Shown in pieces: positions 1 through 25,307 of a stretch of 33,307 bases of DNA (position 1 is its first letter; each line of letters starts with the position of its first letter). Where the stretch lies: NCBI GenBank assembly GCA_036490175.1, contig DASXEJ010000287.1, forward strand, positions 1 through 33,307, read 5' to 3'. A program made the position numbers and the translations under genes. Source of the DNA: Pirellulales bacterium. GTDB taxonomy: Bacteria > Planctomycetota > Planctomycetia > Pirellulales > JACPPG01. A model generated the notes under the pieces. It was not told the origin of the DNA and made no database searches. It was given only the letters and a program-made list of their open reading frames with translations.

Positions 1-1012
1 CGCCATTGACGCGCAGGCCGACCAGCTCGGGCCGGAAGGGAACGCCGGCGTATCCGGCTGCCGAGACGATGCGGCCCCAGTTGGGGTCCGCGCCCGCGAT
101 GGCAGTCTGTACCAACAGGCTTTCCGCGACGGTCTTGGCGATTTGACGAGCCGATTCGACGGTGGCGGCGCCCGAGATTTCGACGGTGACCAGATGCGTG
201 GCTCCTTCGCCATCGATCGGAATCGCCCTGGCCAGGTCGACACATAATTCATGGAGCGCCCGGCCGAACTCGGCCAACTGCGCTCCACTCAAGGGAGGAC
301 CTCCGGCGGCGCCGTTGGCGAGCAACAACACGGTGTCGTTGGTGCTCATGTGACCGTCGACGCTGATGCAATTGAAGCTTTCTTCCACGGTTGCGTTCAA
401 CAGCCGCTGAGCATCGGCCGGCGCGATCGCCGCATCGGTCAGAACGAGCCCCAACATCGTGGCCATGCGTGGCCCGATCATGGCAGCGCCTTTTGCCATT
501 CCCGTGAGGTGTACGGTGCGGCCGTCGAAATTGAGCGTGCGGCCGGCCAGCTTGTGCGTGGTGTCGGTGGTGAGCATGCCACGGGCCGCGGCGACAAGCG
601 ACGCTTCATCGCTAGCGAGTTGCGCGGTCGCTGCCTTGATCCCGGTGGCGATTTTTTCCATCGGCAGAAACACGCCGATGATTCCCGTCGACAGCACTAG
701 CGCCTGTTCCGGTTGCGCACCGCATGCTTCGGCCGCCCAGGTCGCCATTTGCTGCGCGTCGCGTTCGCCGCGTTCGCCAGTGCAAGCGTTGGCATTGCCC
801 GAGTTGACGACCACCGCGCGAATCGCGTCGCTGGGTGTCCGTTTTCGATCGAGGCCCACGGGCGCCGCGAACACCAGGTTTTGCGTGTAGACGCCGGCTG
901 CCGTGGCGGGCAGGTCGGACACGATCAGCGATAGATCCTGCTTCTCGGGGTTGGTCTTGATCGTGCAGTGTACGCCCGCGACACGATAGCCACGTGGAAG
1001 ACAAGGGGGCAT
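1..1012 (-). CDS. argJ: ArgJ, bifunctional glutamate N-acetyltransferase/ornithine acetyltransferase (3' part cut by window edge)
   Basis: This is the arginine-pathway enzyme that moves the acetyl group from N-acetylornithine to glutamate, and in bifunctional forms also makes N-acetylglutamate from acetyl-CoA. About 337 codons are visible; the family is about 400 residues, so only the C-terminus is missing. Visible family blocks are PRGYRVAGVHCTIK near the start, VVNSGNANACTG at about 68-79, LVLSTGIIGVFLPM at about 105-118, and the autocleavage block KGAAMIGPRMATML at 174-187. Thr185 there is the expected nucleophile that becomes the N-terminus of the beta chain. The ATG at 1012 is chosen because an in-frame stop lies about 20 bases upstream; a GAGG lies about 11 nt before it. 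It follows argC on the same strand after 142 bp, so the two probably form an argCJ unit. The substrate assignment is by family; bifunctionality cannot be decided here. Confidence 0.95.
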   Translation of the reverse strand, partial: MPPCLPRGYRVAGVHCTIKTNPEKQDLSLIVSDLPATAAGVYTQNLVFAAPVGLDRKRTPSDAIRAVVVNSGNANACTGERGERDAQQMATWAAEACGAQPEQALVLSTGIIGVFLPMEKIATGIKAATAQLASDEASLVAAARGMLTTDTTHKLAGRTLNFDGRTVHLTGMAKGAAMIGPRMATMLGLVLTDAAIAPADAQRLLNATVEESFNCISVDGHMSTNDTVLLLANGAAGGPPLSGAQLAEFGRALHELCVDLARAIPIDGEGATHLVTVEISGAATVESARQIAKTVAESLLVQTAIAGADPNWGRIVSAAGYAGVPFRPELVGLRVNG

Positions 1013-17656: not shown

Positions 17657-17974
17657 ATGAATCGACCCGCCGCCGATCCCGTCTTCCTCAGCGCGCGCCG
17701 CGAGGCGCTGGTGGCGTTCGTGGTGTGGGCATTCGCCTTGGCCTGGTCGGTTGGCTATTGCGCGGTCAATGGGTATCACCGCACCGCCGAATCGCTGACC
17801 TTTGTGCTGTGGTTTCCGGATTGGGTCTTTTGGGGCATCGTCGTCCCCTGGTTGGCCTGCGTGGTGGTGTCGATCTGGTTTGCCTTCGGATTGATGCGCG
17901 ACGAGGATCTGGGAAGCAACGAGCAGGACGACGACGAGCATGAGTTCAGCGAGCCGGAGCATCGCCATGACTAG
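17657..17974 (+). CDS. Small two-helix membrane protein paired with the sodium:solute symporter (YhdT-like)
   Basis: A 105-residue protein with two predicted transmembrane helices (about 17-36 and 56-76) and a cytosolic acidic tail. The layout (REALVAFVVWAFALAWSVGYC, then FPDWVFWGIVVPWLACVV) resembles the YhdT/DUF997 group, which is typically encoded directly before PanF-type symporters. Its stop overlaps the symporter start, so translational coupling is likely. I infer a helper subunit role for the symporter. The last 22 residues are strongly acidic and end with EPEHRHD, a possible metal-interacting or regulatory tail. No good Shine-Dalgarno sequence precedes the ATG. Confidence 0.8.
   Translation: MNRPAADPVFLSARREALVAFVVWAFALAWSVGYCAVNGYHRTAESLTFVLWFPDWVFWGIVVPWLACVVVSIWFAFGLMRDEDLGSNEQDDDEHEFSEPEHRHD
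17956..17959 (+). promoter_or_regulatory. Ribosome binding site deciding the symporter start
   Basis: GGAG lies 7 nt before the ATG at 17967 and inside the preceding gene. The earlier in-frame ATG at 17940 has only a weaker AGGA about 11 nt upstream. This favours 17967 and an ATGACTAG-type overlap with the small membrane protein. Confidence 0.6.
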
Positions 17975-19679
17975 TGCGCTGCTGTGGGCCGCCGCCGAAA
18001 GTCCGGGCCTGGGAGCAATCCTGGCGCTGCTGATTGTTATCGCCATTTCTGTCTGGCTGGGCACTCTGGCCCAACGCGCCGTAAAGAAGGGTTCGTTTCT
18101 CAAGGGTTATTTCCTCGGCAATCGTGGGCTGGGTGCGTGGGCCCTGGCGCTGACGGCCACGGTGCAAAGTGGCGGGACGTTCATGGGCTATCCGTCGCTC
18201 ATCTATGCACATGGATGGGTCGTGGCCTTGTGGATTGGCAGCTACATGGTCGTGCCAATCACCGGTTTTGGCGTGCTGGGCAAACGCTTCGCTCAACTGT
18301 CGCGGCGCACTGGCGCGATCACCGTACCCGACTTATTGCGGATTCGATTTGGCAGTCCGGCGGTGGGATTAATCTCCTCCTTGTTCATCATCGTTTTCAT
18401 GTCGTCGATGATGGTGGCGCAGTTCAAGGCCGGCGCGATCGTGATGAAGCTGACACTGCCAGGCACGACTTCGCTGGCGCTCAGCGAAGAATTGGAAGAT
18501 ACAGCGACAGAATCGGTCCAAGGCGACAGTAAACCGGGAGCCGCCAAAAGCACCCTCGATCGACGATATCTGCTCGGTTTGGCCGTATTCTCGCTGACTG
18601 TCGTGGGCTACACGCTGATTGGCGGTTTTTTGGCCTCGGTGTGGACCGATCTTTTCCAAAGCGTGCTGATGCTGATCGGCGTCGTCATTTTATTCCTGCT
18701 GGTGGTGCCGCTGACGATCGGCGCGCCGATGCAAGCGGCGACATTGGAAGCGATGGCCAAGACCGGGCCGGATTACGCCTTCGGCCCGGGATTTTCGCCG
18801 TCGGGTCGACAATTTCTGCCGGTGAGCCTGGCATTTTCGTTTTTTGTATTGTGGATCTTTGGCGGCGTAGGGTCCCCTGCCGGCCAGGTGCGATTGATGG
18901 CCTCGCACGACACGCCAACAATTCGCCGCTCGATCGTATTGCTGTGCTTCTACAACACGCTGATCTATTTGCCGCTGATGATTATTTGCGTAACGTCACG
19001 GTCGATTTTTCCAGACCTCGACGCGCCCGACGAAGTGATTCCGCGGCTTGCTTTGTGGGCCACGCGCGACTTCTGGGGTGGTTCCTTCGTCGGCGGCATG
19101 ATATTGGCCGCGCCGTTTGGCGCCGTCATGGCCACGGTCAGCACCTATCTGGTCGTGATCGCGTCGGGCGTGGTTCGTGACGTGTATTTGCGATTCTTGC
19201 GACCGCACGCCGGTCAGACCGAAATCCGTCGGATTTCGCAAGGAGTGATGATATTCTTCGGCTTGCTCTCGGTGGCGCTGAACATCTATCCAGTCAAGTA
19301 TTTGCAAGCACTGGTCGTCTTCAGCACCTCGACCATTGCGGCGACCCTGCTCGTGCCCGCGATCATGGCGGCCTACTGGCGACGCGCGACTGTGCCCGGT
19401 GCGCTCGCCGCCATGTTGACCGGTTCGGCCACTATGCTCGCGCTTTTCGGAGCCGGCTGGATCATGGCCTTCTACGAGATGGATCAGAAACTGGGTCCTG
19501 ATACGTCCTTCCGAGCTTATTACTTGTTGGGCATTGAACCTATTGTGTGGGGAATGATCGTTTCCATGCTGGCCGGGGTGGGTGTGAGCTTGGCGACAGA
19601 GCCGCCGGACGAACGGCTCGTTTCGTGGCTGTTCGACCGTCAAGATGGCGAGCAACCGACCGCGATTCAGCACGGGTGA
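17967..19679 (+). CDS. Sodium:solute symporter (SSS family), PanF-like
   Basis: A sodium-coupled transporter with the LeuT-like SSS fold, about 13 helices, 570 residues from 17967 (579 if the ATG at 17940 is used). Family blocks include GYFLGNRGLGAWALALTAT, TFMGYPSLIYAHGW, FGVLGKRFAQLSRRTGAITV, TLIGGFLASVWTDLFQS (the conserved GG-D block) and ILAAPFGAVMATVSTYLVV. These fit the PanF/pantothenate branch, and the YhdT-like partner directly upstream supports it. True pantothenate specificity is not proven. There is an acidic, Ser/Thr-rich loop of about 35 residues (encoded by about 18453-18560) between two helices that E. coli PanF, as I recall it, lacks. It overlaps the upstream gene. Confidence 0.9.
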   Translation: MTSALLWAAAESPGLGAILALLIVIAISVWLGTLAQRAVKKGSFLKGYFLGNRGLGAWALALTATVQSGGTFMGYPSLIYAHGWVVALWIGSYMVVPITGFGVLGKRFAQLSRRTGAITVPDLLRIRFGSPAVGLISSLFIIVFMSSMMVAQFKAGAIVMKLTLPGTTSLALSEELEDTATESVQGDSKPGAAKSTLDRRYLLGLAVFSLTVVGYTLIGGFLASVWTDLFQSVLMLIGVVILFLLVVPLTIGAPMQAATLEAMAKTGPDYAFGPGFSPSGRQFLPVSLAFSFFVLWIFGGVGSPAGQVRLMASHDTPTIRRSIVLLCFYNTLIYLPLMIICVTSRSIFPDLDAPDEVIPRLALWATRDFWGGSFVGGMILAAPFGAVMATVSTYLVVIASGVVRDVYLRFLRPHAGQTEIRRISQGVMIFFGLLSVALNIYPVKYLQALVVFSTSTIAATLLVPAIMAAYWRRATVPGALAAMLTGSATMLALFGAGWIMAFYEMDQKLGPDTSFRAYYLLGIEPIVWGMIVSMLAGVGVSLATEPPDERLVSWLFDRQDGEQPTAIQHG

Positions 19680-19907
19680 CCGCAACGATTCCTACCCATG
19701 TTGGATCGATTTGAGAATGGCCCTTACCAGCTATGGACTACGGGTCATCGCAGGGTCGGGAAGTAAGCGCCGCCGCAATAACGTCACGTTTTGCAAGTTT
19801 CCAGCTTCGCTCGCACATTGACGCAGCGACGTGTGGCGGGTCGACTTAAGCTCGACTCATGCAGTTTCTTATTCTTGCCACGACCATACCAGGCGAGGCG
19901 TGCGACG

Positions 19908-21488
19908 ATGGCGAACCAGGCAACTCGACCCACAGATTCACCTCAAGCTGCGATTGCAGCGCAGCCCGGGGGAATTGGCAAAGCACAATACATGGCCCTC
20001 ACGGCTGCGCTGTTGGGCTGGTTATTCGACGGCGCCGAGATGGGGGTTTTTTCGATGGTCGGTCGCCCCGCCATCAAGGACCTCATGCAAACCACGGAAG
20101 AGGCCGTGATTGGCCTCCGGTTTGGCATCATTACAGCGTGCTTTCTGGTGGGGGCGGCCACCGGCGGCGTCCTATTCGGCTGGCTGGGCGATCGCATTGG
20201 CCGAGTGCGGGCCATGACCCTCAGCATTCTTACGTACGCGCTATTTACGGGGCTGTGCGGCATGGTCGGCAGCGTCTGGCAGCTAGGGGCGTTGCGCATG
20301 ATCGCTGCCTTGGGGATGGGCGGAGAATGGTCGCTAGGCGTTGCCCTGGTCATGGAGATTTGGCCCAATCGCTCCCGCGCCTTCATGGCCGGACTCATCG
20401 GCGCCGCGGCCAACGCGGGCTATTTGCTCGTCGGTGGAGTGGGCCTGGTGTTGAACAGCACATTGGAACGCCTGTCGATTTGGGGTAGCGAAGTCGGCTT
20501 TCGGCAAGAGTGGGTCGATGCCCTCACCGCCCACGGTGGCTGGCGGCTGTTGATGATGTGCGGCACGGCCCCAGCGCTGCTGACGTTCTTGATTCGGTTG
20601 TTTGTGCCCGAATCCGAACGGTGGGAGAAGGAACGAGATCGGGGCGCGACGGGTTACTGGGCCACACGCGATTTGTTGGCCGTGATCTTGGGATCGGCGG
20701 GGCCGGCCCTGATTATCTACTTGTGGGCCGACCGACCGGAGCCGCTCTCGGCCTTGGTGCGCCTGTCTGGAGCGGCGTTAGGTTTGGCGATCGCCACGCT
20801 GGGATACACGTACCCGGTGGTGCGGTACGTGCAGCGACTGGATGCCTCGGACGGACGGGCGCATGCCCTGACTCCTACGATTGCCCGCATGATGTTGGCG
20901 GCGGGTCTGAGCGGGGTGGCACTGTTGGGAACCTGGGGAGCGGCCCAATGGGTGCCGGCTTGGGCCGACAAGCTGACAGGCGGCGGCCTGCACGTGAAAG
21001 AATACACGCAGATGTGTTCGGCCGCGGGTGCCATTGTGGGAACGATCCTGGCCGCGCTCGCTGGTGATTGGTTGGGTCGGCGCTGGACCTACGTTCTGAT
21101 GTGTGTCGCGTCGTTGGCCTCAGCGATTTGGCTGTATCAATTTCATGCCCAGTACGACGCGGGATTTCTGGCGGCAACCTTTTTATTGGGCGCCTGCACC
21201 GCCTCGTTCTACGGCTGGCTGCCGCTGTACTTGCCCGAGCTATTCCGTACGAGCCTGCGTGCCACGGGGCAGGGCTTCGGCTTTAACTTCGGCCGCATTT
21301 TGGCGGCGATCGGCGCGCTGCAAACGGGCAATCTGATGGGCGCCTTCCAGGAAGGCGTTACGGTCGCGGGGGTTTCACTTCCCGGCGGTTACCCGTTGGC
21401 CTGCACAACGATGAGCTCGGTGTATCTGATCGGCATGGCCTTGATTTGGCTGGCACCAGAGACGAAGGGGCAACCCCTCCCCGATTGA
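19908..21488 (+). CDS. MFS transporter, sugar/organic-acid porter-like
   Basis: A 12-helix major facilitator, 526 residues from the ATG at 19908 (GAGG 9 nt upstream; the open frame continues upstream to 19791 but that part is Arg-rich and not family-like). Helix 1 has LLGWLFDGAEMGVFSM (35-50), whose Asp41 resembles the FDxxD/E signature of aromatic-acid and sialate:H+ symporters. Motif A is complete (GWLGDRIGRVRAM, 91-103), and helices 4-5 carry ALGMGGEWSLGVALVMEIWP. A second motif-A-like segment lies in the other half (AGDWLGRRW). A hydrophilic central loop separates the halves, and the C-terminal region has YLPELFRTSLRATGQGF. Substrate unknown; carboxylates or sugars are possible. It follows the symporter on the same strand after 228 bp. 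Confidence 0.88.
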   Translation: MANQATRPTDSPQAAIAAQPGGIGKAQYMALTAALLGWLFDGAEMGVFSMVGRPAIKDLMQTTEEAVIGLRFGIITACFLVGAATGGVLFGWLGDRIGRVRAMTLSILTYALFTGLCGMVGSVWQLGALRMIAALGMGGEWSLGVALVMEIWPNRSRAFMAGLIGAAANAGYLLVGGVGLVLNSTLERLSIWGSEVGFRQEWVDALTAHGGWRLLMMCGTAPALLTFLIRLFVPESERWEKERDRGATGYWATRDLLAVILGSAGPALIIYLWADRPEPLSALVRLSGAALGLAIATLGYTYPVVRYVQRLDASDGRAHALTPTIARMMLAAGLSGVALLGTWGAAQWVPAWADKLTGGGLHVKEYTQMCSAAGAIVGTILAALAGDWLGRRWTYVLMCVASLASAIWLYQFHAQYDAGFLAATFLLGACTASFYGWLPLYLPELFRTSLRATGQGFGFNFGRILAAIGALQTGNLMGAFQEGVTVAGVSLPGGYPLACTTMSSVYLIGMALIWLAPETKGQPLPD

Positions 21489-21594
21489 GAGCCACTTCGC
21501 GCGCGATAGAACCGTCCGTCGCTCTGAGACTAATTCTTCATCGTGCTGCGACTGGCTCGGGCGACTTCAGTAGAGTGCTGCTCTGAAAGCAAAC

Positions 21595-22209
21595 TCAATC
21601 GAGCGGGCTGCTCACCAGGAGCAGGCAACCATCGTCCGAGGATTGGACCGGCTGCGGTTCGCCAGGCTTCCAATAGCGATATTCCCCGGCACGCAGGCAG
21701 CGATGGCCGATCGACAGTTCTCCCTGTAGCACGACACACTGCTCGCCTTGATCGTGCTGATGAGGTGGCATCCTAGTTCCCGGGGCCAGCCGTATGAGTG
21801 CCGTCACGCGTTGGCGCTCTCTGTCGAAGCGCAGCGGCCGCACGTACATTCCTTCGATGGAATACGGCTCCCAGTCGCGCGCCGCTTGCAACAATTCTGG
21901 CAGACTTTCCTCTACGGCCGCGACAAGTTCGCCGACCCCCTGCATTTGCTGTTCGGACAACTCGCCGAGCGATTCGTTGGCGGCGGCTAATGTTACGACG
22001 CGGCTTAGGGCGCTGGGGGTCACCGGTGGCGCGAGTCGCGCGAGGGCCTCGAACACCGGAGTCAGAGCACGCAACTCGCGTTCGCAGTCGGCGCAGCCAG
22101 CGATAAGATGCGCCTCGAAAGTCGTGCGTTCGTCATCTTCTAGCGCACCTGTTAGATACAAGGCTGCCAATTCCGCGGGATCCCCCAAGTTGTGGTCACC
22201 ACTGGTCAC
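21595..22209 (-). CDS. ChrR-like anti-sigma factor with cupin domain
   Basis: Predicted to hold its sigma factor inactive until a stress signal releases it. Known ChrR responds to singlet oxygen and organic peroxide. It has 204 residues and starts with GTG at 22209, overlapping the sigma stop by 4 nt (GTGA). The N-terminal domain (1-60) has His6, then HLIAGCADC (34-42), a zinc anti-sigma (ZAS) motif. Its spacing is H-x4-C-x2-C, one residue longer than the usual H-x3-C-x2-C. The C-terminal cupin (about 118-200) has PPHQHDQGEQCVVLQG. His150, His152 and Glu156 match the H-x-H-x3-E zinc ligands of ChrR. The fourth ligand, normally His in a PGSVH-like turn, appears to be Gln186 (PGEPQ). Signal and target genes are inferred only. 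Confidence 0.9.
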   Translation of the reverse strand: MTSGDHNLGDPAELAALYLTGALEDDERTTFEAHLIAGCADCERELRALTPVFEALARLAPPVTPSALSRVVTLAAANESLGELSEQQMQGVGELVAAVEESLPELLQAARDWEPYSIEGMYVRPLRFDRERQRVTALIRLAPGTRMPPHQHDQGEQCVVLQGELSIGHRCLRAGEYRYWKPGEPQPVQSSDDGCLLLVSSPLD

Positions 22210-22856
22210 GTGCCGTTTCCTTCATGCGGAGAGAGCATTCTGCGCAGCGCCCGGATTCCGAGCAGGATGCGCGTTTTGGCGGTGCCCAGAGGGATGTCTT
22301 GCCTCTGAGCTACCTGTCTGTGTGTCAGACCTTCAAAAAAGGCGAGTGAAATCGCCGAGCGTTGTTCGACCGGAAGTTTGGCCAGGGCCGCTTGTATCTG
22401 CTCGGCCGCCTCGTCCTGGGCCAAGCCCAGCAGCGGATCGACAGGTGGCGCCGCGGACTGCACTGCGATGCCCGTTATGCCGGGCCGCCTGCGGCGTAGA
22501 AAATCCACCAACCGCGATCGCGCGATCAACGTCAACCAAACCTCGGGACTCGAGCGGTGCGGTGCGTACTTAGACGCCGAACGCCACAGTTGATGAAACG
22601 TATCTTGCAGAACATCTTCCGCGTCTGCCCGATGACGTAAACAACGCATCAACAAGCCGAGCACGCGCGGAGCGTGCAGATCATAGAACAGAGCGAAGGA
22701 TAGCCGATCGCCCGCGGCGATGCGCGCGAGCAACTCTTCGCTGCAAATCGCAGTCGTTGCGGGGACGGGCTCGACTGTTCTGCCGGCGCATGAATCCACG
22801 ATCGAGATGGCGCACCCGTGGGTCTTCGAGGGAGAGGGATTACGTAAAGCATACAT
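22206..22856 (-). CDS. ECF (sigma-70 family) RNA polymerase sigma factor
   Basis: An extracytoplasmic-function sigma factor, probably released by the ChrR-like protein encoded immediately downstream. Region 2 spans LFYDLHAPRVLGLLMRCL through HRADAEDVLQDTFHQLWR. Region 4 spans LPVEQRSAISLAFFEGL, the HTH segment THRQVAQRQDIPLGTAKTR and the basic end RALRRML. The pairing and 4-nt overlap are the usual genetic signature of an ECF/anti-sigma unit. The start is uncertain: ATG at 22856 gives 216 residues with a 50-residue lead-in, and the frame also extends to a TTG at 22898. A later start nearer ICSEELLARI would better fit the family's usual 180-190 residues, but no ATG lies there. No Shine-Dalgarno sequence decides it. 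Confidence 0.9.
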   Translation of the reverse strand: MYALRNPSPSKTHGCAISIVDSCAGRTVEPVPATTAICSEELLARIAAGDRLSFALFYDLHAPRVLGLLMRCLRHRADAEDVLQDTFHQLWRSASKYAPHRSSPEVWLTLIARSRLVDFLRRRRPGITGIAVQSAAPPVDPLLGLAQDEAAEQIQAALAKLPVEQRSAISLAFFEGLTHRQVAQRQDIPLGTAKTRILLGIRALRRMLSPHEGNGT

Positions 22857-23417
22857 CGCGCGCAGGGCGACCCGCAAGCAACTGTCAATATACGGCAATG
22901 GACGGCCGCCGCGCGGTCGATGGGGGCAAATTTTGAATTTTTAAGTTCGCTTGAATCCGATCGTAAAACTGCGACGTACTATCCAAGTTCAGGTTGCTGG
23001 CGCGAGTCCCTGTGTCTAATGATTTTTCGCCCAGACTAACGCCCCACAGAGTCCCGCCGATATCTGACCCTGTTGGCGCCGTCGCTACCAGCCCTACGAC
23101 GGTGCCGCAAATGCTCGCTGGCCGCCATGCCGTAAGAGATGGAGACGTTTGCGAAATATCGTCTTCGTCGCGCAAGCCTTGCGGTACGGCGGCCGCGGGC
23201 AGCTTTTTTAGGGGGCTGGGTTGGTAAGGACCCGGCAGTCGCCAGCCCATTTGTGAGTGGCCTGCGACGCCAATCACCCGCAGCTTGCCCGTTCGCACTC
23301 GACGCTCCCGCCCGCCGAGGGAATACGAGCGGGCCGAGGTCGCAGCAATTCGTCTGACAGTGACGCAGGGACTGTCTAACCACCGGGCGTCGGCTTGCGC
23401 GGCTTCAGGTCGGCGTA
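22857..23417. other. Intergenic region (561 bp)
   Basis: The longest gene-free stretch here, between the sigma gene and the amino-acid permease gene, both on the minus strand. A minus-strand frame of up to 137 codons crosses it, but its translation has no recognisable domain. The part nearest the sigma gene (22925-22990) is AT-rich and is the likely promoter zone for the sigma operon. I see no tRNA, hairpin with a T-run, or motif I can name. Confidence 0.4.
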
Positions 23418-25307
23418 CTATCCCGCCAGAGGCGCGTCGCTGCCCCCCATGCCATGTTTCTTGATCTCGTACATGGTGTCTCGCGCCAGCCGGCTATGGA
23501 AGCGACTGTAAAGTAGGTAAATCGCCAGGCCGATCGCCAGCCAGATTACCAGCCGCAGCCAAGTGCTCAAGGGCAGGAATAACATCATCGTCAGGTTGAC
23601 GACGATTCCGAGAGGGGCAACGACGTAGACCACCGGACAGCGAAAGGGACGATGGACTTCAGGACGTTGGATGCGAAGTAAAAGTACTGCCGCGCACACC
23701 ACGATGAAGGCCAAGAGCGTGCCGATATTGACCATTTTCGTCAAATCATTGATTGGCGTGAATGCCGCCACGACGCAAATAACGCCTCCCGTCAACATCG
23801 TGGCCAAGTGCGGCGAGCGATACTTGGGATGGACGTGGCTAAATATGGGGGGCAACAACCCGTCTCGCGACATGGCCATGAAAACACGCACTTGGCTGAG
23901 AAACGTCACCAGCAGCACACTGGTCATGCCCGCCAGCCCGCCGGCGGCAATCAGCCCCGAGGCCAGCCGTAACCCAGTGCTGTGTTCTTTCTCGCCAAGT
24001 TCCCCGAACGCACTCGCGATCGCGGCGTGCTGATCGATGGCAGGGTACGGAACCATACCGGTGATGATCGCGGAAACCGCGATGTACAAAACGGTACATA
24101 GCACCAACGATGCCATGATCGCAATGGGCATGTCGCGTTGCGGGTTGCGGGCTTCTTCCGCTTGCGTCGAAACAGCGTCAAATCCAATGAATGCGAAAAA
24201 TACCAGCGACGCCCCCAACATCAAGCCCGAAATGCCGTAGGGCATGAACGACGAGCGCGTGGCATCGTCTAACGGCACAAGATAATGGTTCAATCCCAAT
24301 AGCCCCAGCATTCCCCACTTTTCAGCAGCTTTCGCGGGTGCTTGCTCGTTAAGTTGGGCCAAGATTTTTGTTGTGGCCGCCACGTCTTTCTCCGCCGTCG
24401 CGATTTTGCCGGCGTGCAACTCTATCGCGGCGCCCACCTGAGCGTCCACTTCCGCTTGGGTTTGAATCCCCTCCTTTAGCATACGGGCGCCGTCTTGGCG
24501 GGCTTCCTCGATCTTGAACAGCGCCAAAGTCTGTTGGGCGAGCTGTTGGGAACGGGCCTTGGCTTCTTCTTTCGGCAGTTTTTCGACATCGAGCGCATAG
24601 GTGTATGCCAAGTCGGGGACGAGAACCTGCTCGGGCAATAGCCGCTCGTTGACGGGAACGCTCGTCCAGTTCGAAGGAACGACGTAGAAGGCACCCACCG
24701 CGATGACGAAAAGCACGACCGCAAGCTTGACAAATACAAGAATAGCGTTGGTGGTCGCGCTTTCGCGAATTCCGCGCACCAAGACGATGGTCACGATCAA
24801 CATGACCAATGCGCCGGGCAGGTTGAACCAGGCATCTCTATCCGTAAATGGATCGGAAATGAGGTAGCTGGGAATTCTGCTCATGTTGACCGAGGCCAGC
24901 AGCTCGTTCAAGTAGTGCGTCCAAGAGGCCGCGACCGTCGCGCAACTCATGGCATATTCCAGCATCAGGTCCCAGCCGATGATCCACGCAAAGACTTCTC
25001 CCAGTGTGGCATAGGCATACGTATAGGCGCTACCGGCAATGGGGACCATGGCGGCAAATTCAGCGTAGCACAGCGCGGCCAGCGCGCAGCCAATCGCCGC
25101 AAAGGTGAACGAGAGAATGATGGCCGGCCCCGCGTCGACAGCGGCCACCTGCCCTGTCATAACAAAGATTCCCGCGCCAATGATCGCTCCCACGCCCAAG
25201 GCAGTGAGCGAAATCGGACCGAGCACCCGACGCAATTGATGCTCGCCGGCCATGTCGGCCATCAAGGTTTCGATCGACTTAAGGCGGAAAAGTTGCTTCC
25301 AAAGCAT
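23418..25307 (-). CDS. Cationic amino-acid transporter-like APC permease with a large loop insertion
   Basis: A LeuT-fold amino-acid permease of the APC superfamily, CAT/YfnA-like. It has 629 residues; relatives without the insert are near 460-500. TM1 carries the unwound-helix motif GVGAIIGAGIFV (38-49), and YAEFAAMVPIAGSAYTYAY (81-99) follows. The TM6 region is FFAFIGFDAVSTQAEEARNPQRD (split here at FIGFD/AVSTQ), with LSQVRVFMAMSRDGLLP later. Between TM5 and TM6, about residues 216-352 replace a normal loop of about 15-20 residues. The segment is charged, rich in Lys/Glu/Gln/Ala and probably alpha-helical or coiled-coil (EKLPKEEAKARSQQLAQQT, then AEKDVAATTKILAQL). With the usual topology it lies outside the membrane. 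ATG at 25307 has GAGG 8-10 nt upstream. The substrate is inferred from the family. Confidence 0.9.
   Translation of the reverse strand: MLWKQLFRLKSIETLMADMAGEHQLRRVLGPISLTALGVGAIIGAGIFVMTGQVAAVDAGPAIILSFTFAAIGCALAALCYAEFAAMVPIAGSAYTYAYATLGEVFAWIIGWDLMLEYAMSCATVAASWTHYLNELLASVNMSRIPSYLISDPFTDRDAWFNLPGALVMLIVTIVLVRGIRESATTNAILVFVKLAVVLFVIAVGAFYVVPSNWTSVPVNERLLPEQVLVPDLAYTYALDVEKLPKEEAKARSQQLAQQTLALFKIEEARQDGARMLKEGIQTQAEVDAQVGAAIELHAGKIATAEKDVAATTKILAQLNEQAPAKAAEKWGMLGLLGLNHYLVPLDDATRSSFMPYGISGLMLGASLVFFAFIGFDAVSTQAEEARNPQRDMPIAIMASLVLCTVLYIAVSAIITGMVPYPAIDQHAAIASAFGELGEKEHSTGLRLASGLIAAGGLAGMTSVLLVTFLSQVRVFMAMSRDGLLPPIFSHVHPKYRSPHLATMLTGGVICVVAAFTPINDLTKMVNIGTLLAFIVVCAAVLLLRIQRPEVHRPFRCPVVYVVAPLGIVVNLTMMLFLPLSTWLRLVIWLAIGLAIYLLYSRFHSRLARDTMYEIKKHGMGGSDAPLAG

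Follow-up and report, generated by a model that had tools for sequence, protein, structure and literature searches.

The window analysed here, a stretch of 33,307 nucleotides from a Pirellulales bacterium (contig DASXEJ010000287.1), carries a gene for an APC permease whose features are collected in Table 1. The open reading frame scored above the curated cut-off for both PF13520 (165.7 bits; cut-off 27) and PF13906 (39.5 bits; cut-off 27). Against the NCBIfam equivalog for BcaP, NF053761, it reached 554.7 bits, which is under the cut-off of 690, and the permease is therefore not filed as BcaP itself, although the insertion described below may of itself depress the score. Genes for an SSF symporter, an MFS transporter, a ChrR-type cupin and an ECF sigma factor lie beside the permease gene (17940-22898), and these neighbours could possibly form a sigma-controlled transport cluster. 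An Rfam search of the window found no RNA element.

Table 1. Features of the permease gene in the window.
Feature	Residues	Position	Strand	Basis
CAT/BcaP-like APC amino acid permease, 629 aa		23418..25307	-	PF13520, PF13906 matches
TM5 (helix in AF2 model), carries K194 = GkApcT Lys191	184-208	24684..24758	-	
Whole EL3 insertion	216-352	24252..24662	-	GkApcT alignment, relatives
Entry motif, P-x-x-E-R-x-x-P-E-x	218-227	24627..24656	-	row alignment
Four-helix part, predicted helices 225-241, 246-278, 284-301, 306-331		24315..24635	-	AF2; absent in four relatives
Conserved pre-TM6 linker, KWGxLGLLGLxxxLxPxDDxxRSxF	330-354	24246..24320	-	row alignment
TM6 (helix in AF2 model), F371 and D377 = GkApcT Phe231 and Asp237	358-380	24168..24236	-	

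Bacterial APC permeases are used as pared-down models for human transporters. Across 835 bacterial sequences in one study, length averaged 475 plus or minus 20 residues (PMC7687128), compared with 629 in the window permease. The nearest solved structure is that of GkApcT (5oqt, 6f34). Its alignment with the permease covers residues 5-215 and resumes at 353, and the gap between means that all of residues 216-352 constitute an insertion at the TM5/TM6 junction, where it interrupts the NWT/PFxPYG sequence. We compared the 11 GkApcT positions to which PMC5803215 assigns roles. Nine of them (I40, G44, E115, K191, F231, A232, I234, D237 and R327) are identical in the window permease, and two differ (Thr43 is Ala45 and Met321 is Thr468). 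The transport residues are also kept in the relatives that carry the insertion: K194, F371, I374, D377 and G46 are present in all 30 insert-clade rows and E117 in 29. Because nine of the 11 positions are identical, it is likely, as judged from sequence, that transport function is retained. The protein would then be a functional, proton-coupled transporter of amino acids, probably of the CAT/BcaP type.

The earlier note on this DNA had singled out residues 216-352 as an extra segment, and the alignment with GkApcT returned exactly that interval. The note had also stated that relatives have about 15-20 residues at this place. The segment is indeed long, but loops of that size were not the rule: among 21 fetched sister-clade rows, the spacing from N213 to P356 was 5-6 residues in 19, and 9 and 16 in the other two, and in the permease's own clade the EL3 loop runs from 41 to 228 residues. 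The richness in Lys, Glu, Gln and Ala was correct in part. Across residues 215-353 (139 residues) Ala is the most frequent (23), but Leu (19) comes second, ahead of Glu (13), Gln (11) and Lys (10). There is no cysteine in the window insert, none in 19 of the 22 inserts compared, and one in each of the other three. The reading frame through the insertion is open and is kept in relatives; with an open frame preserved across many genomes, a frameshift or misassembly was rejected. A search of 24100-24800 for direct or inverted DNA repeats of at least 14 bases found none across the insert; one 15-base array (24137-24151) lies outside it. Tandem repeat expansion was rejected as well, there being no sign of a recent event of this kind. 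The EL3 loop of the LeuT fold lies outside the membrane, and by homology to LeuT-fold transporters the insertion is probably on the outer (extracytoplasmic) face.

The earlier note had allowed that the segment might prove disordered. AlphaFold2, given the segment alone (five sequences), instead predicted a folded structure, with a mean pLDDT of 82.9, a pTM of 0.75 and 75 of 141 residues at 90 or above; besides the four helices of Table 1, short helices were placed at 333-336 and 340-349. The full-length model (nine sequences) was poor, and its mean pLDDT of 63.3 permits no reading of how the domain would be seated on the transporter; the blocks over 231-320, which scored 82-87, were among its best. 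When 22 long inserts were aligned, 12 columns were at least 90% hydrophobic and 21 were at most 10% hydrophobic, against means of 0 (0 in each) and 0.18 in 300 within-sequence shuffles, a control that leaves shared ancestry in. Outside the linker, strongly conserved columns were few (R252, P225 and A262, 91%; P303 and D308, 82%). The coiled-coil-like heptads reported earlier turned out to be weak. At a fixed angle of 100 degrees, none of five helices, among them that of the linker, showed significant hydrophobic periodicity. In a re-run on the four helices after this null result, with the angle free between 90 and 110 degrees, single helices gave p values of 0.009-0.18 depending on the scale, mostly not significant, and the sum over the four gave 0.0005-0.001. 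The insert helices would probably pack compactly.

No Pfam family matched the insert at E 1, the best NCBIfam match had an E value of 0.015 (15.1 bits; cut-off 135), and PDB sequences gave no match at E 10; on these searches a known domain was rejected. Residues 276-296 have what we take to be a SHOCT-like look; with no Pfam match, SHOCT identity was rejected. The idea of a defence-system protein was also rejected, only a generic amino acid transporter model having matched (E 3.5e-16). In a Foldseek search of the PDB with the insert model, none of 92 matches had an E value of 0.001 or better, and the same was true of 152 matches in a search for viral fold relatives. The best VIA-align match (Z 7.3, rmsd 4.0, 106 aligned) was a designed protein, and Z values in this range are common among helical models. 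With confidently predicted helices and no match in the family libraries searched, the suggestion of a helical domain unmatched in those libraries was supported. The insert, as modelled, is a real domain that is unlabelled in any library searched and was found only in planctomycetes in these searches. Among the open-licence PMC papers listed in literature searches, judged by titles and the beginnings of abstracts, none dealt with a planctomycete permease with such a domain.

R222 of the entry motif is present in 29 of 30 insert-clade rows. The last ~25 residues of the insert, a hydrophobic linker (KWG...RSPF) that runs directly into TM6a, are much more conserved than the helical part: G332, G338 and D347 occur in all 30 rows, W331 and L343 in 29, and R351 in 28. 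The linker is kept also in forms that have no helical part.

Whether the insertion recurs in planctomycete permeases, as the earlier note had asked, was answered by a profile of six inserts, which found matches in 30 of the 397 class genomes, among them that of the window, and always in this permease. All 30 fetched loci encode it, as do two further places (L120, and one in the ORF of L058). Matches extended into the helical region in 24 of the 30, although the match begins only at profile position 75 in G278 and at position 65 in G344, where the ORF is cut; the other six (G004, G005, G040, G047, G091 and G140) matched in the linker only. In G278 an in-frame TAA splits the permease copy (L067) into two ORFs, representing either a pseudogene or a sequencing error. 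The profile score of G176 (37.6 bits) is barely above that of the linker alone (~35 bits), and its helical part may not be homologous. A phylum sample gave matches in three of 392 genomes: that of the window, a second from its order and a third from its class. The class and phylum scans each scored no more than 10 candidates from any genome. A GTDB-wide scan of 84,980 species with two patterns, both lying in the linker so that a helical part lacking the linker would be missed, gave 57 pattern matches, of which eight encode a relative, all eight planctomycete.

In a tree built from the membrane cores of 50 sequences, loops excluded, a single branch (97/93) separated all 29 insert-bearing rows from the 21 rows lacking the insert. 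EL3 is 41-43 residues long in four rows of the insert clade, 93 in another four and 125-228 in the remaining 21. The four short-loop relatives are nested among the full forms: the short L007 (G004) has the long L003 as its sister (99/96), and the short L008 (G047) the long L004 (100/95). The segment is therefore not simply the normal loop of close relatives, an outcome that the earlier note had named as fatal to a domain, since the short-loop relatives sit within the long-loop clade. Placing the short forms in a single clade was rejected (p-AU 0.0245, which is moderately low). Three losses of the helical part would be the simplest reading, tree counts alone being unable to separate loss from gain, and we infer loss rather than regain. 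In a comparison of G000 with G001, where dS is near saturation so that dN/dS ratios are rough, the helical part was 63% identical and the two membrane halves 89% and 93%. Such fast change fits an accessory role and fits a neutral filler equally. The 93-residue EL3 belongs to a subclade (100/98; L036, L037, L063 and L068) with the middle DYLxxxP ... LTxGxxLL, which showed no alignment with the long forms beyond the entry motif (HHalign probability 6, shared linker excluded).

Some sister-clade permeases carry an insert of their own in EL2, the TM3-TM4 loop. It was seen in seven of the 21 sister-clade rows (L015, L104, L106, L107, L110, L111 and L114), a count that is no frequency, the rows having been hand-picked, not at random, among the matches listed. 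Between reference positions 139 and 162 it measures 82-155 residues, with the common beta-like pattern YDxGHxLPN ... VGDxxxEAKIT, and the trait has undergone at least three changes on the tree. Permeases of the two clades adjoin on one contig in L108 (G234), less than 0.1 kb apart, and in L109 (G355), ~1.7 kb apart. A speculative and on balance doubtful extension would see exchangeable outer-face modules on planctomycete CAT-like permeases: in EL3 the four-helix part, the 93-residue variant or a linker loop of 41-43 residues, and in some of the sister clade the beta-like EL2 insert. These would act as regulatory lids or docking parts on a constant core, the KWG linker signalling to TM6a.

G001 and G003 share the gene order SSF symporter, MFS transporter, ChrR-type cupin, ECF sigma, permease, SMP-30-like protein and AAA protein, and the ECF sigma and ChrR-type cupin genes adjoin the permease in G000, G001 and G003. 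Sigma, cupin and MFS genes are still near the permease of G004 (L073 region), which has no helical part. Conversely, tblastn (E 1e-6) detected none of the neighbours, sigma and cupin included, in the regions fetched for six carriers of the insert (G024, G032, G284, G272, G184 and G338). Being found beside a short form and undetected beside several carriers, these genes are not what the domain is tied to.

TM6a is a helix that changes position from one functional state of this fold to another. The reading that we favour, with a modest lean, is that the insertion is an extracytoplasmic domain of helices, dispensable and tethered to TM6a, which would tune the outer gate or dock a partner. The domain is inserted at a single point of EL3 between TM5 and TM6a, probably on the outer face, and consists of the helical part (four predicted helices, ~107 residues) and the conserved hydrophobic linker KWG...DDxxRSPF. 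The linker is the fixed part, leading into TM6a, and the helical part would be a losable accessory that most likely docks a periplasmic partner or modulates how the outer gate opens, and would not be needed for transport itself. The position, the predicted helices, the carriers on one branch, the absence from nested relatives and the retained transport residues are computed anatomy; gate coupling or partner docking we infer by analogy with KCC4, CAT1 and Lyp1, and dispensability for transport is suggested in the same indirect way.

One could envision instead that EL3 simply tolerates insertions and that the charged helices are functionless filler, with the pre-TM6 linker alone being of consequence. 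The wide range of loop lengths, the internal parts that differ between lineages, the short forms that arose more than once and the fast evolution of the helical part would all be expected of such neutral growth. We nevertheless judge it unlikely, given that confident helices were predicted from five sequences, that hydrophobic and polar columns are conserved in 22 inserts, and that the insert keeps a length of 138-145 residues in 12 fetched rows from several genera and at least two orders. Another scenario, tentative and somewhat improbable, is that the helices serve specifically for oligomerisation or docking, packing on a second copy of the permease or on a periplasmic protein. A predicted helical domain with weak helical periodicity is in keeping with this, and there is a precedent for EL3 of an APC protein in mouse CAT1, whose ECL3 binds a retroviral receptor-binding domain according to PMC13022406; however, the neighbour genes do not track the domain. 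A third possibility is a transceptor, that is, a permease turned amino acid receptor that signals via its extra domain, like yeast Ssy1. The EL5-6 loop of Ssy1 is also lengthened, as described in PMC12958826, and the adjoining sigma and cupin genes of G000, G001 and G003 would suit a signalling role. This seems highly improbable, because the transport residues are kept, the sigma/cupin pair stands also by the short form of G004 and escaped detection near the six insert carriers, and the cytoplasmic N-terminal part is where Ssy1 binds its partners (PMC12958826).

The accessory outer domain that we favour can be set beside several known systems. GkApcT (5oqt, PMC5803215) and CAT/BcaP-type permeases share the transmembrane core and key residues with the permease, but GkApcT lacks the EL3 insertion, NWT passing straight into PFMPYG. 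Yeast Lyp1 and Ssy1, likened here by description, are an APC permease and an APC-type receptor with an extended EL3 (PMC7687128 and PMC12958826). Alanine changes in the EL3 extension of Lyp1 affect location or activity, as PMC7687128 reports. Ssy1 is a receptor that evolved from transporters, and its EL5-6 loop of ~60 residues is ~20 longer than in transporters, as PMC12958826 describes, compared with ~137 extra residues in the window permease. ECL3 of mouse CAT1 shifts together with TM1b from one state to another and offers a surface for protein binding (PMC13022406).

The closest precedent would be the EL3/EL4 outer domain of the KCC K-Cl cotransporters, which has the same position and a different make-up. 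Like the permease, these proteins belong to the APC superfamily and have a large structured outer domain to which EL3 contributes and which leads into TM6A; in KCC4 the EL3/EL4 domain does so via an extended segment, and activity falls when an EL3 glycosylation site or EL4 residues are changed (PMC7200160). EL3 and EL4 together make up the KCC domain, which comprises a three-stranded sheet, five short helices, two disulfides and glycans (PMC7200160), whereas that of the permease consists of four predicted helices in EL3 alone; with no cysteine in the window insert and none or one in all 22, the two disulfides have no counterpart. The likeness to KCC is one of description. EL3 is already known as a site where APC transporters grow outer domains. 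Close species with and without a whole outer domain, among them G003 and G004, a matched pair of one genus with and without the helical part, amount to a natural experiment on the function of such domains, comparable to the outer domain of the K-Cl cotransporters.
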